DNA from: Candidatus Kaiserbacteria bacterium RIFCSPLOWO2_01_FULL_50_24
GTDB taxonomy: Bacteria; Patescibacteriota; Minisyncoccia; Phycocordibacterales; UBA2100
NCBI GenBank assembly: GCA_001783335.1
Contig: MFLU01000017.1
Location: 1 to 42,863, forward strand
Direction of reading: 5' to 3'
DNA length: 42,863 bases
Both the position numbers and the translations under genes were made by a program. Below the pieces are notes generated by a model. That model did not search any database. It saw only the letters and a list, made by a program, of their open reading frames with translations, and was not told the origin of the DNA. Shown in pieces: positions 4,529-37,645 of this stretch (position 1 is the stretch's first letter; each line of letters begins with the position of its first letter).

Positions 4529-4592
4529 GCTCTCTCTCCTCTTTCTACCGCCACCGACTTTATCATACCCAAAACCGAAACACAATTTTCAA

Positions 4593-4638
4593 CCGACACT
4601 TATTTTATCCCGCTTTAGCGGGATAAAATAAGTGTCGG
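4593..4638. repeat. Perfect 21-bp-arm hairpin (CCGACACTTATTTTATCCCGC ttta ...)
   Basis: Arms are exact reverse complements with a 4-nt loop. Confidence 0.9.
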
Positions 4639-4645
4639 TGAGTTT

Positions 4646-4747: not shown

Positions 4748-6016
4748 CTAGTTATTACGCTGATTTGGTATCGGTGTTATTAACGCCACGAGCACATCAA
4801 TTGTTTTCTGTATATCACGCGCGGTTATGTCGCGACCTAAGGATATGCGGATGGTACTTTCGGCGCGCCATGCCTCTCCTCCTAATGCGCGTACGACGTG
4901 CGAGAATTGTTCGACATTTTTGCAGGCGCTTTTTGTGGAAACTGCGATACTGGCTTGGTCAAGTTGCAGCGCCAAGTACTCACTTTGTATGTTTGGTATG
5001 GAAACATTCAGAACATGCGGCAAGGCCTCGCCTTGCCGTGAATCGCCATTTATTACCAAACCGGGAATACGCGCGATAAGCTTGCGCGCGAGCTCGTCGC
5101 GCAATTTTTGCACACGCCGCGATTCTTGTTCTCGCTCTTTTGAAATAATAGCGAACGCTTCCGAAAACGCGGCGACAAGCGCAACATTTTCCGTCCCCGC
5201 GCGCACACCGAACTCCTGCCCACTACCTAGAATTGTTGGTGCAAGCAGTGCTCCTTCTTTGCCGCGATGCCGCTTCCCTACCAATAAACCAGTTCCGCGC
5301 GGTGCATATAATTTCCCCGCGTCAAATGTCATAAGGTCTACGCCGAGTGTGTGCACTTGCGGAGAAATATAAAGCGGCGCCTGTCCCGCGTCGCTATGAA
5401 ATATGACGCCATATTTGCGAGTGTTCCACAAGTCAGACTTCCGTACGGAAGTCTGACTTGTGGAATTTTGATTTACGTGGTCTTCGTGCTCACGGATTGC
5501 ACGTGCAATTTTTGAGAGCGGTTGCACTACACCAATCTCATGGTTCGCCCATCCAACAGAAACAAAAACGGTTTCCGGTTTGAGAGCTCGCGCAACTGTT
5601 TCTGCGCTCACCATGCCTCGTCCGTCTGGATTAACCTCTGTGACGTTGCCGCCCATCTCGGCGATGTGCCGAAAACATTCAAGCACCGACGGGTGTTCTA
5701 TCGCGCTTACAACCCAGTGTGTTTCCTGCGGCTTTCTGCCAGACAACACCACGCGCTTGAAGCGTCCGAGAATGGCGAGGTTGTTTGCCTCTGTCGCGCC
5801 GGAAGTGAATACGATTTCTCGCGCCTTCACGCCAAGCTCGCGCGCGAGCGAAGCGCGCGACGCGTCAAGCACGGTGCGCGCCACCACACCCTCCGCATGG
5901 ATTGCGCCCGGATTTCCATATATCTCTGCGGCATCGCGAAACACCCGCACCGCCTCCGGCAAAGGCGGCGTCGCGCCAGCATAATCCATATATACGCGCT
6001 TTTTGGCGAACCACAT
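4748..6016 (-). CDS. Cysteine desulfurase (NifS/IscS family)
   Basis: MDYAGATPP, TSGATEANNLAI, EHPSVLE, PLP-Lys region FDAGKLYAPRG, active-site Cys STKSACKN. Confidence 0.92.
   Translation of the reverse strand: MWFAKKRVYMDYAGATPPLPEAVRVFRDAAEIYGNPGAIHAEGVVARTVLDASRASLARELGVKAREIVFTSGATEANNLAILGRFKRVVLSGRKPQETHWVVSAIEHPSVLECFRHIAEMGGNVTEVNPDGRGMVSAETVARALKPETVFVSVGWANHEIGVVQPLSKIARAIREHEDHVNQNSTSQTSVRKSDLWNTRKYGVIFHSDAGQAPLYISPQVHTLGVDLMTFDAGKLYAPRGTGLLVGKRHRGKEGALLAPTILGSGQEFGVRAGTENVALVAAFSEAFAIISKEREQESRRVQKLRDELARKLIARIPGLVINGDSRQGEALPHVLNVSIPNIQSEYLALQLDQASIAVSTKSACKNVEQFSHVVRALGGEAWRAESTIRISLGRDITARDIQKTIDVLVALITPIPNQRNN
5018..5038. repeat. Palindromic element CGGCAAGGC-CTC-GCCTTGCCG inside the cysteine desulfurase CDS
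   Basis: The same core occurs at 31762-31782 and within 34864-34892. Confidence 0.85.
5424..5465. repeat. 42-bp perfect palindrome inside the cysteine desulfurase CDS
   Basis: ttccacaagtcagacttccgt|acggaagtctgacttgtggaa, exact. Confidence 0.95.
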
Positions 6017-6830: not shown

Positions 6831-8312
6831 ATGTCTACAAAATTCACTACACAGATAGAGCGTCCTCCTATTGTGGTGGTTATGGGGCATGTGGATCACG
6901 GTAAGTCCACTCTGCTTGATTTCATACGGAAAACCAACACGACCGATAAAGAAACCGGCGGCATCACGCAAAAAGTCGCCGCGTACGAAGTCCTGCACAA
7001 AAATAAAAGGATAACGTTCATTGATACGCCCGGTCACGCCGCTTTTCAGGCAATCCGCGCGCGCGGCGCAAATGTTGCGGACATTGCCATTCTCGTCGTC
7101 GCGGCGGATGACGGAGTAAAGGAGCAAACACTTGAGGCACTCGAGAGTATTCGCGCCGCAAACATACCCCTGGTCGTCGCCATAAACAAAATAGACAAGT
7201 CGAACGCCGACATAGCACGCACGCAAGCGTCTCTTCTTGAAAAAGGTGTATACCTTGAAAAGCTCGGAGGCGACGTGCCATGGACCGCAATTTCCGCAAA
7301 GGAAGGAACGGGTATTGAGGAACTCCTTGACCTTGTATTGATAGTCGCGGAATTCAAGGAGCTGAAAGCCGACCCCGCGCTCCGCGCCCAAGGATTCGTG
7401 ATAGAAACTCACCGTGATTCAAGGCGTGGAATCGCAGCAACTCTTATTATTACGAACGGGACACTGAAAGGCGGTATGGCGGTATGTGCGGGACACGCTG
7501 TTGCCCCAGTGCGTATCATGGAAAATCACGCCGGGCGTACGCTGCACGAGGCATCGTTCTCCACCCCCATTCTTCTCGTCGGCTTTGACGAAATGCCGAG
7601 CGTTGGCGCCACCTTTCATTCGTTCGCAAAGAAAAAAGAAGCAGAGCTCGCACGGCAAGCAGTGGAGAAAAAAGCGGAAACCCAAGTCGAGAACAGCGAA
7701 GAAACTTTTTTCATGCCCATTATTGTCCGTGCCGACACAACCGGTTCACTTGAAGCAATCGCTCTTGAAGCGTCACGTCTCGGCGATTCGCATGCGCGCA
7801 TACGAATCGTGCAATCGGATGTCGGCACAATCTCCGAAGGAGATGCGAAGGCGGCCATGACCGGAGAAAATCACGCGGTCGTAATCGGCTTTAATGTGGA
7901 GGCAGACGTACTTGCGGAAGAGTACGCAAGACAACACAGCATACAAATAGAAACGTTTGATATTATTTACAAACTCACCGAACGCCTCCAAGAGCTTTTA
8001 AAAAATGCGGCACCGAAGCAGTTGATGGAAGAAAAACACGGAAGCGCAAAAATCTTGAGGCAGTTTTCAAGCAGAAAAGAGGTGCATGTGGTGGGTGGCG
8101 CGGTTACCGAAGGATTCATCGCGAAAAAATCTTACGTGCGCGTCTTTCGGCGCAATCGCGAGATTGGCATAGGGAAAATCACAAACTTGCAAGCGCACAA
8201 GAAAAACGTGGACCGCGTTGAGGCACCAAGCGAATTTGGCGCACAAATTGAATCCGACTTTGAAATTGCGCAGGGAGATATTCTTGAGTGCTTCACCACA
8301 GCACTAAAATAA
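6831..8312 (+). CDS. infB: Translation initiation factor IF-2 (short form without an N-terminal extension)
   Basis: VVVMGHVDHGKSTLLD, DTPGHAAF, NKIDK; the G domain begins almost at the start codon. Confidence 0.95.
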   Translation: MSTKFTTQIERPPIVVVMGHVDHGKSTLLDFIRKTNTTDKETGGITQKVAAYEVLHKNKRITFIDTPGHAAFQAIRARGANVADIAILVVAADDGVKEQTLEALESIRAANIPLVVAINKIDKSNADIARTQASLLEKGVYLEKLGGDVPWTAISAKEGTGIEELLDLVLIVAEFKELKADPALRAQGFVIETHRDSRRGIAATLIITNGTLKGGMAVCAGHAVAPVRIMENHAGRTLHEASFSTPILLVGFDEMPSVGATFHSFAKKKEAELARQAVEKKAETQVENSEETFFMPIIVRADTTGSLEAIALEASRLGDSHARIRIVQSDVGTISEGDAKAAMTGENHAVVIGFNVEADVLAEEYARQHSIQIETFDIIYKLTERLQELLKNAAPKQLMEEKHGSAKILRQFSSRKEVHVVGGAVTEGFIAKKSYVRVFRRNREIGIGKITNLQAHKKNVDRVEAPSEFGAQIESDFEIAQGDILECFTTALK

Positions 8313-8447
8313 ATTCCAAATTACAAGCACCAAATCACAAACAAATCACAATGACCAAAATACAAAATGAAAGACAGAGTGCGTTTGAGACATTGGAATT
8401 TGGAATTTTGGTATTGTTTGGAATTTGGGATTTGTAATTTGTTATTT
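8311..8447. repeat. AT-rich imperfect palindromic repeat (CAAATTCCAAA family), copy 1
   Basis: aaattccaaattacaagcaccaaatcac ... ggaatttgggatttgtaatttg. Confidence 0.75.
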
Positions 8448-16308: not shown

Positions 16309-16355
16309 AGTAAATTATGTTCCAATCTACGCATGGCCACAATGTGAGGAAAATA

Positions 16356-16494
16356 ACAAATTACAGATCCAAAATTCCAAACAATATCAAAACTTCAAAT
16401 TCCAATATCTCAAACGGGTTTTGTTTTGTGTTTTGTGTTTTGGTCATTGTGATTTGTTTGTGATTTGGTGCTTGGAATTTGGTGCTTTTGTAAG
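16356..16494. repeat. AT-rich imperfect palindromic repeat, copy 2
   Basis: ccaaaattccaaacaatatcaaaacttcaaattcc ... gtgatttggtgcttggaatttgg. Confidence 0.75.
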
Positions 16495-19566: not shown

Positions 19567-19594
19567 ATTCTAGTATTTTGCAAAATACTAGAAT
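19567..19594. repeat. 28-bp perfect palindrome ATTCTAGTATTTTGCAAAATACTAGAAT
   Basis: Self-complementary; sister copy at 20061-20088. Confidence 0.9.
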
Positions 19595-20060: not shown

Positions 20061-20088
20061 ATTCTAGTGTTTTGCAAAACACTAGAAT
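20061..20088. repeat. 28-bp perfect palindrome ATTCTAGTGTTTTGCAAAACACTAGAAT
   Basis: Differs from 19567-19594 by one compensated base pair. Confidence 0.9.
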
Positions 20089-20265: not shown

Positions 20266-20299
20266 AAATCGCCCGCCCCGGCATGCCGGGGCGGGCGAT
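20266..20299 (-). terminator. Terminator hairpin CGCCCGCCCCGGCATGCCGGGGCGGGCG followed by ATTTT
   Basis: Perfect palindrome just downstream of the minus-strand ORF ending at 20303. Confidence 0.65.
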
Positions 20300-28045: not shown

Positions 28046-28441
28046 TCAGCGGTTGAATCGTCGCAAAATATTTTTTTCGAGTGTGTCCATCGCGGCGCCA
28101 TGCCGCATGCCCTTGAGGTGAAGCAGACCGTGAACATACAGGTGGGCAATACGTGCTACGGGAGAGACGCCGAGTACGCGAGCTTCGCGTTCCGCTTTTC
28201 GAATATTCAAAACGATTTCCCCCTCATCTTTCGCGAGCGAGAACGACAATACATTGGGCACATAATTTTTCTTTCTGTATGTATTATTAAGGCGCTTGGC
28301 TCGCGCGTCTCCAACGAGTGCGATGGAAAGCGTGTAGTGTTTCGAGAGAAGTGCACTCGCAATGCGCTCTAGTGGCACCCTACGCAAAAACACACGATGT
28401 GTGTTTTTGCGTAGGGTACACGCGATGTCAATAGTGAACAC
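28046..28441 (-). CDS. ybeY: Endoribonuclease YbeY
   Basis: HLYVHGLLHLKGMRH zinc motif; NNTYRKKNYVPNVLSFSL; probable GTG start 8 bp after the S21 stop. The longer ORF to 28543 would overlap rpsU. Confidence 0.88.
   Translation of the reverse strand: MFTIDIACTLRKNTHRVFLRRVPLERIASALLSKHYTLSIALVGDARAKRLNNTYRKKNYVPNVLSFSLAKDEGEIVLNIRKAEREARVLGVSPVARIAHLYVHGLLHLKGMRHGAAMDTLEKNILRRFNR
28378..28416. repeat. Palindrome CCCTACGCAAAAACACAC-gat-GTGTGTTTTTGCGTAGGG inside the ybeY CDS
   Basis: Exact 18-bp arms, 3-nt loop. Confidence 0.92.
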
Positions 28442-30839: not shown

Positions 30840-30899
30840 GCACGCATTGTAGCGCATACAATGCGTTGACACCAAACACTTCACATGTCCCATGCAGGA

Positions 30900-31090
30900 A
30901 AAATCCAAATTACAAATCCCAAATTCCAAACAATATCAAAACTTCAAATTCTAATATACCAAACGTGTTTTGTTTTGTATTTTGTGCTTTGGTCATTGTG
31001 ATTTGTTTGTGATTTGGTGCTTGGTGCTTTGGATTTTAATGCTCATTTGGTGCTTAGAATTTTAGCGTTCTTTTGGTGCTTGTGATTTGA
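30900..31090. repeat. AT-rich imperfect palindromic repeat, copy 3
   Basis: ccaaattacaaatcccaaattccaaacaatatcaaaac ... gtgatttggtgcttgg. Confidence 0.75.
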
Positions 31091-31114: not shown

Positions 31115-31690
31115 ATGTGGGTAATCGTCGGTCTCGGCAATCCTGATGCAAAATACGAGGGCACACGGCACAACACCGGGCGTGATGCCGTGCGTTTTTT
31201 TGGCTCAAAGACTGGATTTACCGACTGGCGTAAAAATACCAAGGCAGTGGCGCTCGTGGCCGGAGACAAGAAAGTCACGCTCCTTCTACCCGATACATAT
31301 ATGAATAAGTCGGGCAACGCCGTTGCCAAATTTGTGAAAAGTGTCAAAGCCGCAGAACGGCTCGTAGTGGTGCATGACGACCTTGACCTCCCGCTCGGCA
31401 CAATAAAGATATCTTTTGGCCGTGGCAGTGGCGGGCACAAGGGAGCGGAATCAATCATGCGTGCAGTCAAGACGAAGAAATTTGTGCGCGTGCGCGTCGG
31501 CGTTTCTCCGGCGAATGCTTCCGGGAAAATTAAAAAACCGCAGGGAGAAGAAAGAGTGGACACATTCATCCTCTCCAAATTCAAACCAACAGAACAGGAG
31601 CAACTAAAAAAAGTTTTTACGCGTACCGCGGATGCACTTGACACACTCGTGAAAGACGGGCGCGAGAAGGCGATGAATGTTTTTAATTAG
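31115..31690 (+). CDS. pth: Peptidyl-tRNA hydrolase
   Basis: MWVIVGLGNPDAKYEGTRHNTGRDAV, PDTYMNKSGNAV, HDDLDLPLG. Confidence 0.94.
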   Translation: MWVIVGLGNPDAKYEGTRHNTGRDAVRFFGSKTGFTDWRKNTKAVALVAGDKKVTLLLPDTYMNKSGNAVAKFVKSVKAAERLVVVHDDLDLPLGTIKISFGRGSGGHKGAESIMRAVKTKKFVRVRVGVSPANASGKIKKPQGEERVDTFILSKFKPTEQEQLKKVFTRTADALDTLVKDGREKAMNVFN

Positions 31691-31759
31691 CTGTGAGCTG
31701 CAAGGAAACGCCGAGTAGATAGCTGTGAGTTGCAAAGAAATCCTTGCACCTCGCACTTT

Positions 31760-31784
31760 CACGGCAAGGCGAGGCCTTGCCGTG
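31760..31784. repeat. Palindromic element CACGGCAAGGC-GAG-GCCTTGCCGTG, intergenic copy
   Basis: Matches the element inside nifS (5018-5038) and 34864-34892. Confidence 0.85.
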
Positions 31785-31918
31785 ACTCAATTTTGATCTA
31801 TTGCGGAACTTACTTTTCTTTTTTCAAGACACGTGGTAGGGTGGCGGTAGTAAAATTATGGGAGGAATATACGAAGGAATCCCTCGTCCAGAGGGTGGTA
31901 AGAAGTGGTAACGGCAAA

Positions 31919-31953
31919 CGGCGCCCTCCAGAGGAGGGCGCCGTAATCTTTTT
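31919..31953 (+). terminator. Rho-independent terminator
   Basis: CGGCGCCCTCC aga GGAGGGCGCCG taatc TTTTT. Confidence 0.8.
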
Positions 31954-31979: not shown

Positions 31980-33104
31980 CTAGTTTACAGGTTTCAGCGT
32001 CATGCGCCTCTCCTTTGCCTCGAAGAAAGTAATCGTGAACGGATACACCTTACCGAGCTCAAGCTTGGCGCGCAGTTCCTCTTCATTTGCAAATTCAGAC
32101 ACATGCACCAACCCTGCCACGCCTTCTTCCACCGAGGCAAGCGCGCCATATTTATTGTACTTAATAACCACCGCATTTACCTGCTGGTCCTTTATGTACT
32201 TTCCAGCCGCCACCTTCCACGGATCGTCGGCGAGCGCTTTTATGGAAAGCGATACTTTATCGTCCTTTATGTCTATAACTTTCACCTTTACCGAGTCGCC
32301 TACTTTGTAGCGGGTCTTGGGATTTTCAACGAGCGCCCAATCCATTTCAGAAATGTGCACCAGCCCTTCAAGACCATCTTCCAGCTTTACGAATACGCCA
32401 AACTCCGTGGTGCCAGTCACCACGCCCCCAACCACATCGCCCACGCGATACTTTTCCACGAGAGACGCGCGCTCGGAAGTGCCGGCGCCTTTTTCTGAAA
32501 AGATGAGTTTCTGCTCTTTCGGATTAGCCGTGATAATCATTACTTCCAATTTTTCTCCGACAAGTTTCTTCAGTTCAGCGAAAATTTTATCTTTGTCTCC
32601 ATCGGGAACGCGCGGATAGTGAACAGGAGAAAGTTGGGATGCGGGAAGAAATCCTATCAAACCATTCCAGTGGATAATAAGGCCGCCCTTGTTCGCTTCC
32701 GCAACGGGCAATGCGAGAGTCGTCTTTTGAGTCATTGCCGTTTCCGCTTCATTCCAAATGAGCGCGGCGCGCGCCTCGCGGAGCGATAGCTCTATGTAGC
32801 CATCCTCGTTCTCGGCGGAGACTACCTTTGCGGCGACGATGTCGCCGATGTGCACGTTCTTCAGAGTCTCGCGCGCCGAAAGGTATTCGCGCCCATAAAT
32901 AATGCCTGTGCCAAACGGATGAATATCTATAAAAACGCGTGCGCGACCAATCGCGACCACGGGCCCCTCCACCACATCATCTACCGCCGGCTTTTTCACT
33001 GCGGTGCGCAAAAGCTCCGCCATCGGACCAGCGGGAACATTTTCATGCTCGTCCTCCCTCACATCTTCAGCGGGTACATTCTTTTCCTCTGTATCAACAG
33101 TCAT
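31980..33104 (-). CDS. rpsA: 30S ribosomal protein S1 (multiple S1 domains)
   Basis: VGDVVGGVVTGTTEFGVFVKLEDGLEGLVHISEMDW and further S1 repeats. Confidence 0.88.
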   Translation of the reverse strand: MTVDTEEKNVPAEDVREDEHENVPAGPMAELLRTAVKKPAVDDVVEGPVVAIGRARVFIDIHPFGTGIIYGREYLSARETLKNVHIGDIVAAKVVSAENEDGYIELSLREARAALIWNEAETAMTQKTTLALPVAEANKGGLIIHWNGLIGFLPASQLSPVHYPRVPDGDKDKIFAELKKLVGEKLEVMIITANPKEQKLIFSEKGAGTSERASLVEKYRVGDVVGGVVTGTTEFGVFVKLEDGLEGLVHISEMDWALVENPKTRYKVGDSVKVKVIDIKDDKVSLSIKALADDPWKVAAGKYIKDQQVNAVVIKYNKYGALASVEEGVAGLVHVSEFANEEELRAKLELGKVYPFTITFFEAKERRMTLKPVN

Positions 33105-33239
33105 GGGTTTATAGAGTGCGCGGCTTCTCCCTTTCATGCAACCGTCCCTTTGAGGAAAGAGGAGGATTAGTCCGCACACTGCACTATTAAGTTGTGGTGA
33201 GAGCATACACAACGAAAAGTCAAAAGTCAAATTTAAAAA

Positions 33240-33267
33240 TCCTAGAGGCGTCGCCTCTAGGATTTTA
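33240..33267. terminator. Hairpin terminator TCCTAGAGGCGTCGCCTCTAGGATTTT
   Basis: Inverted repeat with flanking A/T runs. Confidence 0.6.
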
Positions 33268-34805: not shown

Positions 34806-34863
34806 TGCCCCGGAGCCCATTGCTCGCATCGCACGATAAAAAGTATATTCCACTGCGGCAAAG

Positions 34864-34892
34864 CCTACGGCAAGGCGAGGCCTTGCCGTAGG
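34864..34892. repeat. Palindromic element CCTACGGCAAGGC-GAG-GCCTTGCCGTAGG in a nested hairpin
   Basis: Exact 13-bp arms; an outer CTGCGGCAA/TTGCCGCAG arm pair surrounds it. Confidence 0.85.
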
Positions 34893-35004
34893 CCGGGCCT
34901 TGCCGCAGTTGGTAACAGGTCTATTTCCCCGCTCGAGAAAACACAACTACAACGTGTAAAAGTCAAGCTTGTATCACACGTGAGGGTGGTATGATGTCAA
35001 CAAT

Positions 35005-36195
35005 ATGACTAAGCAGGTGAAGCCGGATGTTGAGTCGTTTGCGCGAATACGCGTGGTGGGCGTTGGCGGCTCCGGCGGGAACGCCATCAATCACATGGTC
35101 GCTTCAAGTATCCAGGGCGTTGACTTCATCGCCGTTAATACCGATGCGCAAGACCTCCATAAGTCAAAGGCAAAAAAGAAAATTCACGTTGGGAAAACTC
35201 TGACGCGCGGACTGGGAACCGGCATGAATCCGGAACTCGGCAAGCAGGCGGCAGAAGAGACACGTGAAGAAATTCAGGATGCGTTGAAAGGAAGCGACAT
35301 GGTATTCGTCACCTGCGGCATGGGAGGCGGCACGGGGACGGGCGCGGCACCAGTCGTCGCAAAGATCGCGCGTGACCTGGGTGCCTTAACGGTAGGCGTT
35401 GTCACAAAGCCATTCGGCTTTGAGGGGCAACAACGGCTTCGCCTCGCAGAGCAAGGAATTGCGGAACTGCGGAAAGCAGTGGACGCCGTCATCATCATCC
35501 CGAACGATAAATTGCTTGCTATCGTCTCGCGCGAAACGGGCATCAAAAACGCATTTGCAATGTGTGACGACATTTTGAAACAAGCAGTGGAGGGAATTTC
35601 AGACCTCATCACGCAAACCGGCATCATCAACGTGGACTTCGCTGACGTGCGCTCTGTCATGGAAAACGCAGGAAGTGCCCTTATGGGCATCGGCACAGCA
35701 ACTGGCGACAAACGAGCCGAAGTCGCAGCAAAAGCCGCCATTAGCTCGCCGCTTCTTGAGGTATCAATTACAGGCGCCAAGGGCGTACTCTTCTCTATCG
35801 CCGGTGGTGAAGACCTCGGAATGCTCGAGGTACAAGACGCTGCTTCGGTCATCACCGAGGCCATTGATTCGGAAGCAAAGGTTATTTTTGGAGCTGTTAC
35901 CGACGACGCGCTGAAGAAAGGCGAGGTGCGCGTAACGGTCATCGCAACGGGTTTCCCGGAATCCACTCGTTCTTCCGTATTTCAAACAGCCCAGCGCATA
36001 GCCGCACGTAAAGAACAGGAGGCGGCTCCAGCACCAATGCGCGCGAGAGAAACAGGCAAAAAGACAGAGGAAAAGGTGGCAGAAAAAGGTAGACTGGAAA
36101 AAGATGCGGTGTCGCAAAATGATGTTCCAAAAAACAAACAGAGCGAGGATGACGAGGTGTGGGGAGGACTGCCATCATTTCTAAGAAGGAAATGA
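35005..36195 (+). CDS. ftsZ: Cell division protein FtsZ
   Basis: GVGGSGGNAINHM, GGGTGTGAAPV tubulin signature; C-terminal DEVWGGLPSFLRRK. Confidence 0.96.
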   Translation: MTKQVKPDVESFARIRVVGVGGSGGNAINHMVASSIQGVDFIAVNTDAQDLHKSKAKKKIHVGKTLTRGLGTGMNPELGKQAAEETREEIQDALKGSDMVFVTCGMGGGTGTGAAPVVAKIARDLGALTVGVVTKPFGFEGQQRLRLAEQGIAELRKAVDAVIIIPNDKLLAIVSRETGIKNAFAMCDDILKQAVEGISDLITQTGIINVDFADVRSVMENAGSALMGIGTATGDKRAEVAAKAAISSPLLEVSITGAKGVLFSIAGGEDLGMLEVQDAASVITEAIDSEAKVIFGAVTDDALKKGEVRVTVIATGFPESTRSSVFQTAQRIAARKEQEAAPAPMRARETGKKTEEKVAEKGRLEKDAVSQNDVPKNKQSEDDEVWGGLPSFLRRK

Positions 36196-36197
36196 TG

Positions 36198-36340
36198 GAA
36201 ATCACAAATCACAAGCACCAAATTCCAAACAAATCCCAAATAACTAAAACTTAAAATTTCAAACGAATGCAGTTTGTTTTTGATTTTTGTAATTGGAATT
36301 TAGGTATTGTTTGTGATTTGTAATTTGTGCTTTGGAGCTT
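36198..36340. repeat. AT-rich imperfect palindromic repeat, copy 4
   Basis: aaatcacaaatcacaagcaccaaattccaaacaaatccc ... gtgatttgtaatttgtgc. Confidence 0.75.
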
Positions 36341-36355
36341 TACAATTATTAAATC

Positions 36356-37333
36356 ATGTATGATTTAATAATTGTCGGCGGTGGTCCTGCGGGCGTCTCC
36401 GCGGGTGTATATGCCGCGCGTAAACGCCTGAAAACTGTTTTGATTGCGAAAGAGATCGGCGGACAAAGCGTTGTGTCTACGGAAATCCAAAACTGGATAG
36501 GGGTAGAGAAGATTGCCGGCGCCGACCTTGCAGTAGCATTTGAAAAACATCTGCGCGCGTACGCGAAAGACGTTGTGGCATTGAAAATCGGAAACACGGT
36601 AGAGCGCGTAGAGCGAGAAGACAACGGCTTCACCGTAACTACATCCACAGGCGAAAAATATCATACAAAAACGGTGCTTGTGGCAACGGGTGGCGATCGC
36701 CGTCGGCTTGCCATCCCCGGCGCAGACACCTTTGAGCACAAGGGAGTCACATACTGCGCCTCGTGCGATGGCCCCTTATTCGCCGGGCAAGACGTGGTTG
36801 TAGTAGGTGGCGGCAACGCCGGATTTGAGACGGCGGCACAGCTTCTTGCGTACGCAAAATCGGTAACGCTCGTTCATCGTGGAAGCGAATTCGCCAAAGC
36901 AGATGCGGCGACCGTTGCGTCGGTTCTCGCACATCCGAACATGCGCACCGCTCTGAACTCCGAACCCACAGAGGTGAGGGGTAACAAGTTTGTATCAAGC
37001 ATCGTGGTAAAAAATATAAAGAGTGGTGAAATAAAAGAAATTCCAACCGGTGGCGTGTTTGTGGAGATAGGCATGATACCGAACACAGATTTTGTGAAAG
37101 GTCTGGTGGGGTTGGACACATTCGGGCGCGTAATCACTAACCCAAAAAATCAACGGGCATCGTGTGGCGGCATCTGGGCGGCGGGAGATTGTACGGATGA
37201 ATTATACCATCAAAACAACATCGCCGCGGGCGATGGCGTGAAGGCGCTGGAGGACATTTATTTCTACGCACACAGAAACCAAACAAACACTAAAATTCCA
37301 AGCACCAAGCACCAAATTACAAACAATATCTAA
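36356..37333 (+). CDS. trxB: Thioredoxin-disulfide reductase
   Basis: GGGPAGVSAGVYAARK, VTYCASCDGPLFAG (CxxC), GGGNAGFETA, GIWAAGDCTD. Confidence 0.92.
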   Translation: MYDLIIVGGGPAGVSAGVYAARKRLKTVLIAKEIGGQSVVSTEIQNWIGVEKIAGADLAVAFEKHLRAYAKDVVALKIGNTVERVEREDNGFTVTTSTGEKYHTKTVLVATGGDRRRLAIPGADTFEHKGVTYCASCDGPLFAGQDVVVVGGGNAGFETAAQLLAYAKSVTLVHRGSEFAKADAATVASVLAHPNMRTALNSEPTEVRGNKFVSSIVVKNIKSGEIKEIPTGGVFVEIGMIPNTDFVKGLVGLDTFGRVITNPKNQRASCGGIWAAGDCTDELYHQNNIAAGDGVKALEDIYFYAHRNQTNTKIPSTKHQITNNI

Positions 37334-37430
37334 ATTCTAATTATCAAATACAAAACCCGGTCAGTTTTGAATTTGTGATTTCGGTAATTTGAATTTATTT
37401 GGAATTTGGGATTTGTAATTTGTTATTTTT
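37280..37430. repeat. AT-rich imperfect palindromic repeat, copy 5, overlapping the trxB 3' end
   Basis: aaaattccaagcaccaagcaccaaattacaaac ... ggaatttgggatttgtaatttg. Confidence 0.75.
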
Positions 37431-37645
37431 CTTGAGCTGTCTGTGTTCTATGCTTTTGGTATGTTTGTGTTTTGTTTGTGCTTTGTGCAATTTGTTTGTG
37501 CTCTGTGTATGTCTTGTTTGGTCACAGATTGCCTACGGCAATTTCACGGGGTATACCCTGTGAAAATTCTGTGAAGTAGAATTGTCTGCGACAATTTCAT
37601 AGGGTATACTCCACACAGAGTTCATTGACACCAGTGGAGGTGCCT

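Follow-up and report, generated by a model that had tools for sequence, protein, structure and literature searches.

The nifS locus and its palindromes

The stretch of DNA analysed here, referred to as the window, is a 42,863-nt contig (C17) of the genome of a Candidatus Kaiserbacteria bacterium (G000; 849 kb in 22 contigs). Its nifS gene for a cysteine desulfurase carries two palindromic elements in the reading frame. The element under study is the one at 5018, a short member of a dispersed repeat family that we regard as probably a repetitive extragenic palindromic (REP) element mobilised by a REP-associated tyrosine transposase (RAYT). The features of the window are collected in Table 1. 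All assemblies used are draft or metagenome assemblies, and open reading frames (ORFs) were called mechanically.

Table 1. Coordinates and surroundings of the palindromic elements in the window
Feature	Position	Strand	Remarks
nifS/iscS-type cysteine desulfurase gene	4748-6016	-	422 amino acids (aa), intact; two in-frame palindromic elements
REP copy in nifS	5018-5041	-	TCACGGCAAGGCGAGGCCTTGCCG, read as S-R-Q-G-E-A-L-P
Second in-frame element in nifS	5424-5465	-	42-bp perfect palindrome TTCCACAAGTCAGACTTCCGTACGGAAGTCTGACTTGTGGAA; two inverted AAGTCAGACTT units, resembling a REP doublet forming a hairpin (REPIN-like)
pth	31115-31690	+	left neighbour of the REP copy at 31762
Intergenic REP copy	31759-31785		TCACGGCAAGGCGAGGCCTTGCCGTGA; between the convergent pth and S1-domain genes
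S1-domain gene	31980-33230	-	right neighbour of the REP copy at 31762
Intergenic copy of a third REP family	33236-33266		AAAATCCTAGAGGCG...CGCCTCTAGGATTTT; family also flanks the RAYT gene L018 (G000:C10:37406-37654)
Nested intergenic REP copies	34853-34908		CTGCGGCAAAGCC-[TACGGCAAGGCGAGGCCTTGCCGTA]-GGCCGGGCCTTGCCGCAG; inner palindrome 34863-34893; nesting read from the sequence
ftsZ	35005-36195	+	downstream of the REP copy at 34868

The copy at 5018 has perfect 9-bp arms and a 3-nt loop, and is flanked by the outer TCA of the family on a single side. Were the family copy complete, it would close in this frame with TGA, which is a stop codon; the gene carries CAT there. The protein reads NGDSRQGE-ALPHVLNVS at this site, where the common form among the 29 homologues compared is NGDLKH-ALPHMLNVS; SRQGE is absent from all 29. 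The net gain is 2 aa (+6 nt) and remains this small because the right arm, GCCTTGCCG, overlays the conserved Ala-Leu-Pro codons. An earlier note on this DNA had expected an extra loop of about 6-8 aa found only here; the homologues do lack the residues, while the expected size was too large. At this site L036 and L052, two of the homologues, carry different and longer inserts, and the loop is therefore tolerant. In the predicted NifS structure it falls between two strands.

The second element, which the earlier note does not contain, sits in a loop that exceeds its counterpart in most homologues by about 20 aa. It shares its family with the palindromes beside the RAYT gene L016. Its exact 42-bp core is single-copy in the genome, and its CAAGTCnGACTTG half recurs. 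This loop and the loop near residue 108 hold different palindromes in four other members of the genus (G006, G015, G035, G023).

Palindromes of another kind are also found at this locus. At 5070-5106 of the window, and in the nifS homologues L030, L033, L034 and L040, the codons for KLRD(D/E)LARE(L/I)VA make perfect or near-perfect 34-bp palindromes. These are native codons without a change in length, and their arms vary between genomes in a matched way, which possibly reflects the correction of quasipalindromes within coding sequence. In nifS homologues, the palindromes of the KLRDELARELVA part were considered as REPs and rejected, being native codons and not insertions. Just 3' of nifS, at 4592-4639, lies a 48-bp palindrome with 23-nt perfect arms and a 2-nt spacer, whose family is not among the RAYT-side palindromes of G000 itself.

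Distribution of the repeat family

The 21-bp core CGGCAAGGCnnnGCCTTGCCG occurs exactly at 5018-5038, 31762-31782 and 34868-34888, the three matches that the window yields with up to 3 mismatches; 100 dinucleotide shuffles of the window yield none at the same tolerance, and the chance expectation is zero. These are the places where the earlier note had put its copies. Its statement that one family lies both between genes and inside a conserved gene is borne out, the nifS copy being in frame and the other two intergenic. It had given the identity between the nifS copy and the copy at 31760-31784 as about 23 nt; the sharing is real and extends over 24 nt (TCACGGCAAGGCGAGGCCTTGCCG; minus strand at 5018-5041, plus strand at 31759-31782). 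The copy at 34868 sits within another copy from its own family, a nesting that had been overlooked. The genome-wide enrichment of the core, proposed at the time as a check, is clear: pattern matching with up to 3 mismatches finds 27 places, 13 of them perfect, against a single place for the reversed pattern as control.

The CGGCAAGGC family, to which the nifS copy belongs, comprises about 26 copies, five of which are certainly coding (nifS, ligA, uvrA and two RAYT genes). Several further copies lie in ORFs without a known family, where the coding status is uncertain. The copies are mainly extragenic, although 84-86% of the DNA is ORF. Within the genus the family is found in 11 of 52 members. 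The single strand of the REP folds into a strong hairpin (z-scores -5.2 to -8.6). Compensatory change among the copies of this genome is weak past the first outer pair and mostly amounts to sub-type differences, and we rest no conclusion on it.

Palindromes and transposase genes

The genome contains seven genes for PF01797 HUH/Y1 transposases, and every one has a palindrome family of its own next to or around it. Copies of the CGGCAAGGC type surround the RAYT genes at C10:102076 and C11:4634, the CAAGTCnGACTTG family adjoins the one at C11:24515 and the CCTAGAGGCG family the one at C10:37406. This pairing was scored on 83 RAYT genes of the genus and 113 other ORFs. Matched palindromes on both sides are present at 51/83 RAYT genes and 0/113 other ORFs; the lone hit in the control set was itself a RAYT. 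All 44 aligned transposases match NF047646, the REP-associated tyrosine transposase family, and 3 match IS200; L019 scores 34 bits, where the cut-off of NF047646 is 80. The HUH motif and the catalytic Tyr are invariant in the aligned proteins. An AlphaFold model of the RAYT has a predicted local distance difference test score (pLDDT) of 91, and its sole match in the PDB at E<=0.001 is 4ER8 (E 5e-7), TnpA_REP bound to a REP hairpin.

Many of the transposase genes also hold their own palindrome inside the coding sequence. Such an internal, in-frame copy is present in 24/83 genes, with all three frames represented. It precedes the HUH motif in 22 of the 24, and all but one of these 22 lie 22-34 codons ahead of it. 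The region is a low-confidence loop in the model of L019.

Palindromes in other genes

The CGGCAAGGC family is likewise found in frame in ligA and uvrA of G000, with homologues that are devoid of the residues. In ligA of G008, a copy placed at exactly the same nucleotide has its arms changed on both sides (CTG..CAG versus CCA..TGG). The UvrA loop that holds the G000 copy contains unrelated palindromes in G008, G009, G013, G015, G017 and G018. Taken together, nifS, ligA and uvrA contain 38 palindromes against 4.6 expected from codon shuffling, a count that includes some native codons from the KLRDELARELVA part of nifS homologues. Among the 27 in-gene palindromes of these three genes that could be scored, 10 agree with a family found beside RAYT genes of their own genome, with 1.9 expected.

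The phenomenon is not confined to these genes. A 243-kb sample of stretches from G000 gave 70 perfect palindromes (arms >=10) compared with 0-2 per shuffled contig, and 27 of the 70 lie inside ORFs, among them uvrB, uvrC, murB, leuS, atpD, atpG, mutY, tsaD and recR. PDB alignments, which took in five of the proteins, place an insertion at the palindrome of 13 aa in UvrB, 8 in RecR and 3 each in AtpG and LeuS; AtpD gains 1 aa. The insertions in UvrB, RecR, AtpG and LeuS come from families other than CGGCAAGGC. At positions 3677-10799 of L059 (G000:C10), uvrB, murB, uvrA and uvrC are grouped, each with at least one in-frame palindrome. Repair genes seem over-represented among the genes that carry palindromes, in line with what PMC3733652 reports elsewhere.

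Further repeats were noted in the window. At 19567-19594 and 20061-20088 lie two 28-bp palindromes, ATTCTAGTATTTTGCAAAATACTAGAAT and ATTCTAGTGTTTTGCAAAACACTAGAAT, which differ in both arms in a matched way; a RAYT was not found for either. More perfect palindromes with 12-19 nt arms, which carry no RAYT family assignment, are located at 28377-28417, 20268-20299 and 31918-31944. Dispersed AT-rich repeats of a AAATTCCAAATTACAAGCACCAAAT type and a TTTGGAATTTGGGATTTGTAATTT type occur at 8311-8440, 16347-16480, 30896-31029, 36199-36333 and 37293-37432, with up to 129 nt at 91% identity.

Origin of the elements

The palindromes travel with genes for REP-associated tyrosine transposases and are therefore REP/REPIN elements. 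With good confidence we assign the nifS element to a RAYT/TnpA_REP system whose transposase presumably mobilised the copies. The system has most of the properties by which REP/RAYT systems are recognised, but it differs from the canonical tagged form. By analogy with E. coli TnpA_REP and with IS608, the RAYT would recognise the single-stranded hairpin, cleave it and rejoin it, and is thus likely to be what mobilises REP copies. Copies would spread during replication, and those that survive are mostly extragenic. A minority came to lie in genes and would have survived there because the core has no stop codon in any frame, the net change in length was divisible by three and the loop that received the copy could accommodate it. 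In nifS, a copy would have replaced roughly the LKH-ALP codons by SRQGE-ALP, so that the event looks like a substitution rather than a clean addition. As the copy lies in a loop between two strands, the enzyme should still work, and the copy is presumably neutral.

Several observations weigh against this assignment. Protein identity with the nifS homologues reaches only about 44-59%, and no closely related empty site is among them. The loop type of the nifS copy, GAG/CTC, differs from the loops beside either of the genome's own CGGCAAGGC-type RAYT genes (CCG, CTT). Under our scoring rule, 32/83 RAYT genes are without matched palindromes on both sides. Finally, the feet of known REPs are not enriched at the palindrome ends, neither GT[AG]G (9/228 versus 6.0 in shuffled sequence) nor CGTC (7 of 228 versus 3.9). 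A canonical GTAG- or CGTC-tagged REP was rejected for this lack of enrichment.

For the nifS copy alone, the palindrome could have been produced by local template switching or gene conversion at a half-palindrome already in place, a route compatible with a REP/RAYT origin of the family. The conserved codons near GCC-TTG-CCG would have acted as seed, and the other arm would derive from a REP elsewhere. Such a route would explain a net gain of merely 6 nt and a right arm lying on conserved ALP codons, for which homologues have similar codons, e.g. GCG CTT CCG, and it agrees with the joint difference of both ligA arms between G000 and G008 at the same site. The identity to the dispersed family, however, covers 24 nt with the loop and the outer TCA, hence a family donor is needed even then, and other inserts add 8-20 aa outright. 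We consider this route unlikely, yet the most serious of the alternatives.

The earlier note had likened the repeat to Rickettsia palindromic elements (RPEs). As a description the likeness holds, since in-frame insertion in conserved genes is the hallmark of RPEs. As an explanation it would mean that selfish palindromes spread without RAYT and that the RAYT genes are merely another lodging place, for which the RAYT genes without a matching palindrome could be cited. Each palindrome type goes with a RAYT gene of its own, the control ORFs reported above contrast with this, and in-gene palindromes match RAYT families of the same genome; all this makes the explanation quite improbable. Slightly less probable still are functional hairpins under selection that are not mobile, serving as terminator, in mRNA processing or as nucleoid or replication site. 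The hairpins are strong, and the copies are mainly extragenic with one between convergent genes, but the family sequences vary by species and track the local RAYT, in-frame copies occur in many unrelated genes in differing frames, and the CGGCAAGGC family is restricted to 11 of the 52 genus members. That SRQGEALPH simply requires such codons, by chance or protein constraint, is refuted: ALPH is conserved in nearly all homologues, whereas SRQGE is in none, and zero copies are expected by chance where the genome has 13 perfect ones.

The preferred reading of RAYT-mobilised REPs connects in-frame palindromes in conserved proteins, which are on record but so far unexplained, with a recognisable enzyme family that the genome itself encodes. 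In this lineage with small genomes, housekeeping proteins appear to gain amino acids from small mobile elements, and short odd loops in proteins of Patescibacteria may be mobile DNA and not adaptations. The same NifS, UvrA and LigA loops provide a natural insertion series, in which insertion, tolerance and concerted arm change become testable. It is a speculative and rather improbable idea that the REP inside the RAYT gene is a working part. It would then be an element-encoded loop at a fixed position, read in any frame, that keeps transposase and palindrome changing together (as self-marking, autoregulation or specificity loop). In that picture, housekeeping and repair proteins would meanwhile keep gaining loops from the same elements.

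Comparison with known systems

Intragenic REPs of this kind are already published for other phyla. In-frame REPs from several phyla are the subject of PMC3733652, which places many of them in repair genes, names uvrA, uvrB and DNA ligase, and connects the elements with RPEs. The elements described here resemble the intragenic GTAG/CGTC REPs of Opitutus terrae, Rickettsia conorii and others in that work by their in-frame position in conserved genes, and uvrA, uvrB and DNA ligase are hit in both. They differ in belonging to Patescibacteria, in lacking GTAG/CGTC tag enrichment and in having a cognate RAYT in the same genome. Our literature search for RAYT or REP in the candidate phyla radiation (CPR), Parcubacteria or Patescibacteria returned no relevant report, within incomplete literature coverage.

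According to PMC6006769, transposase genes of TnpA_REP subclass 2.4 hold in-frame REPs, generally between HuH and Y. The in-frame cognate REP within the transposase gene is shared with our system, whereas 22/24 internal copies here stand before HUH. Where the TnpA_REP classes of that study have WQ, the alignment reads mostly FQ here. With RPEs the elements share in-frame insertions in conserved proteins alongside intergenic copies, with homologues lacking the residues in nifS, ligA and uvrA. They are likened by this insertion pattern and not by RPE sequence, and they differ in lineage and in their association with RAYT.

A close parallel is offered by REP/REPIN elements with RAYT transposases, such as E. 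coli REP and TnpA_REP (4ER8), with short multicopy hairpins that are mostly extragenic, matched copies flanking an HUH/Y1 gene in a REPtron-like arrangement and 4ER8 as the nearest fold. In contrast to these, the system described here has no GT[AG]G foot, near-perfect palindromes, many in-frame genic copies and several RAYT families in one small genome. Apparently new are the lineage, the untagged palindromes, the several cognate RAYTs per reduced genome, the recurrence of insertions at the same loops and the position of the internal copy ahead of HUH.
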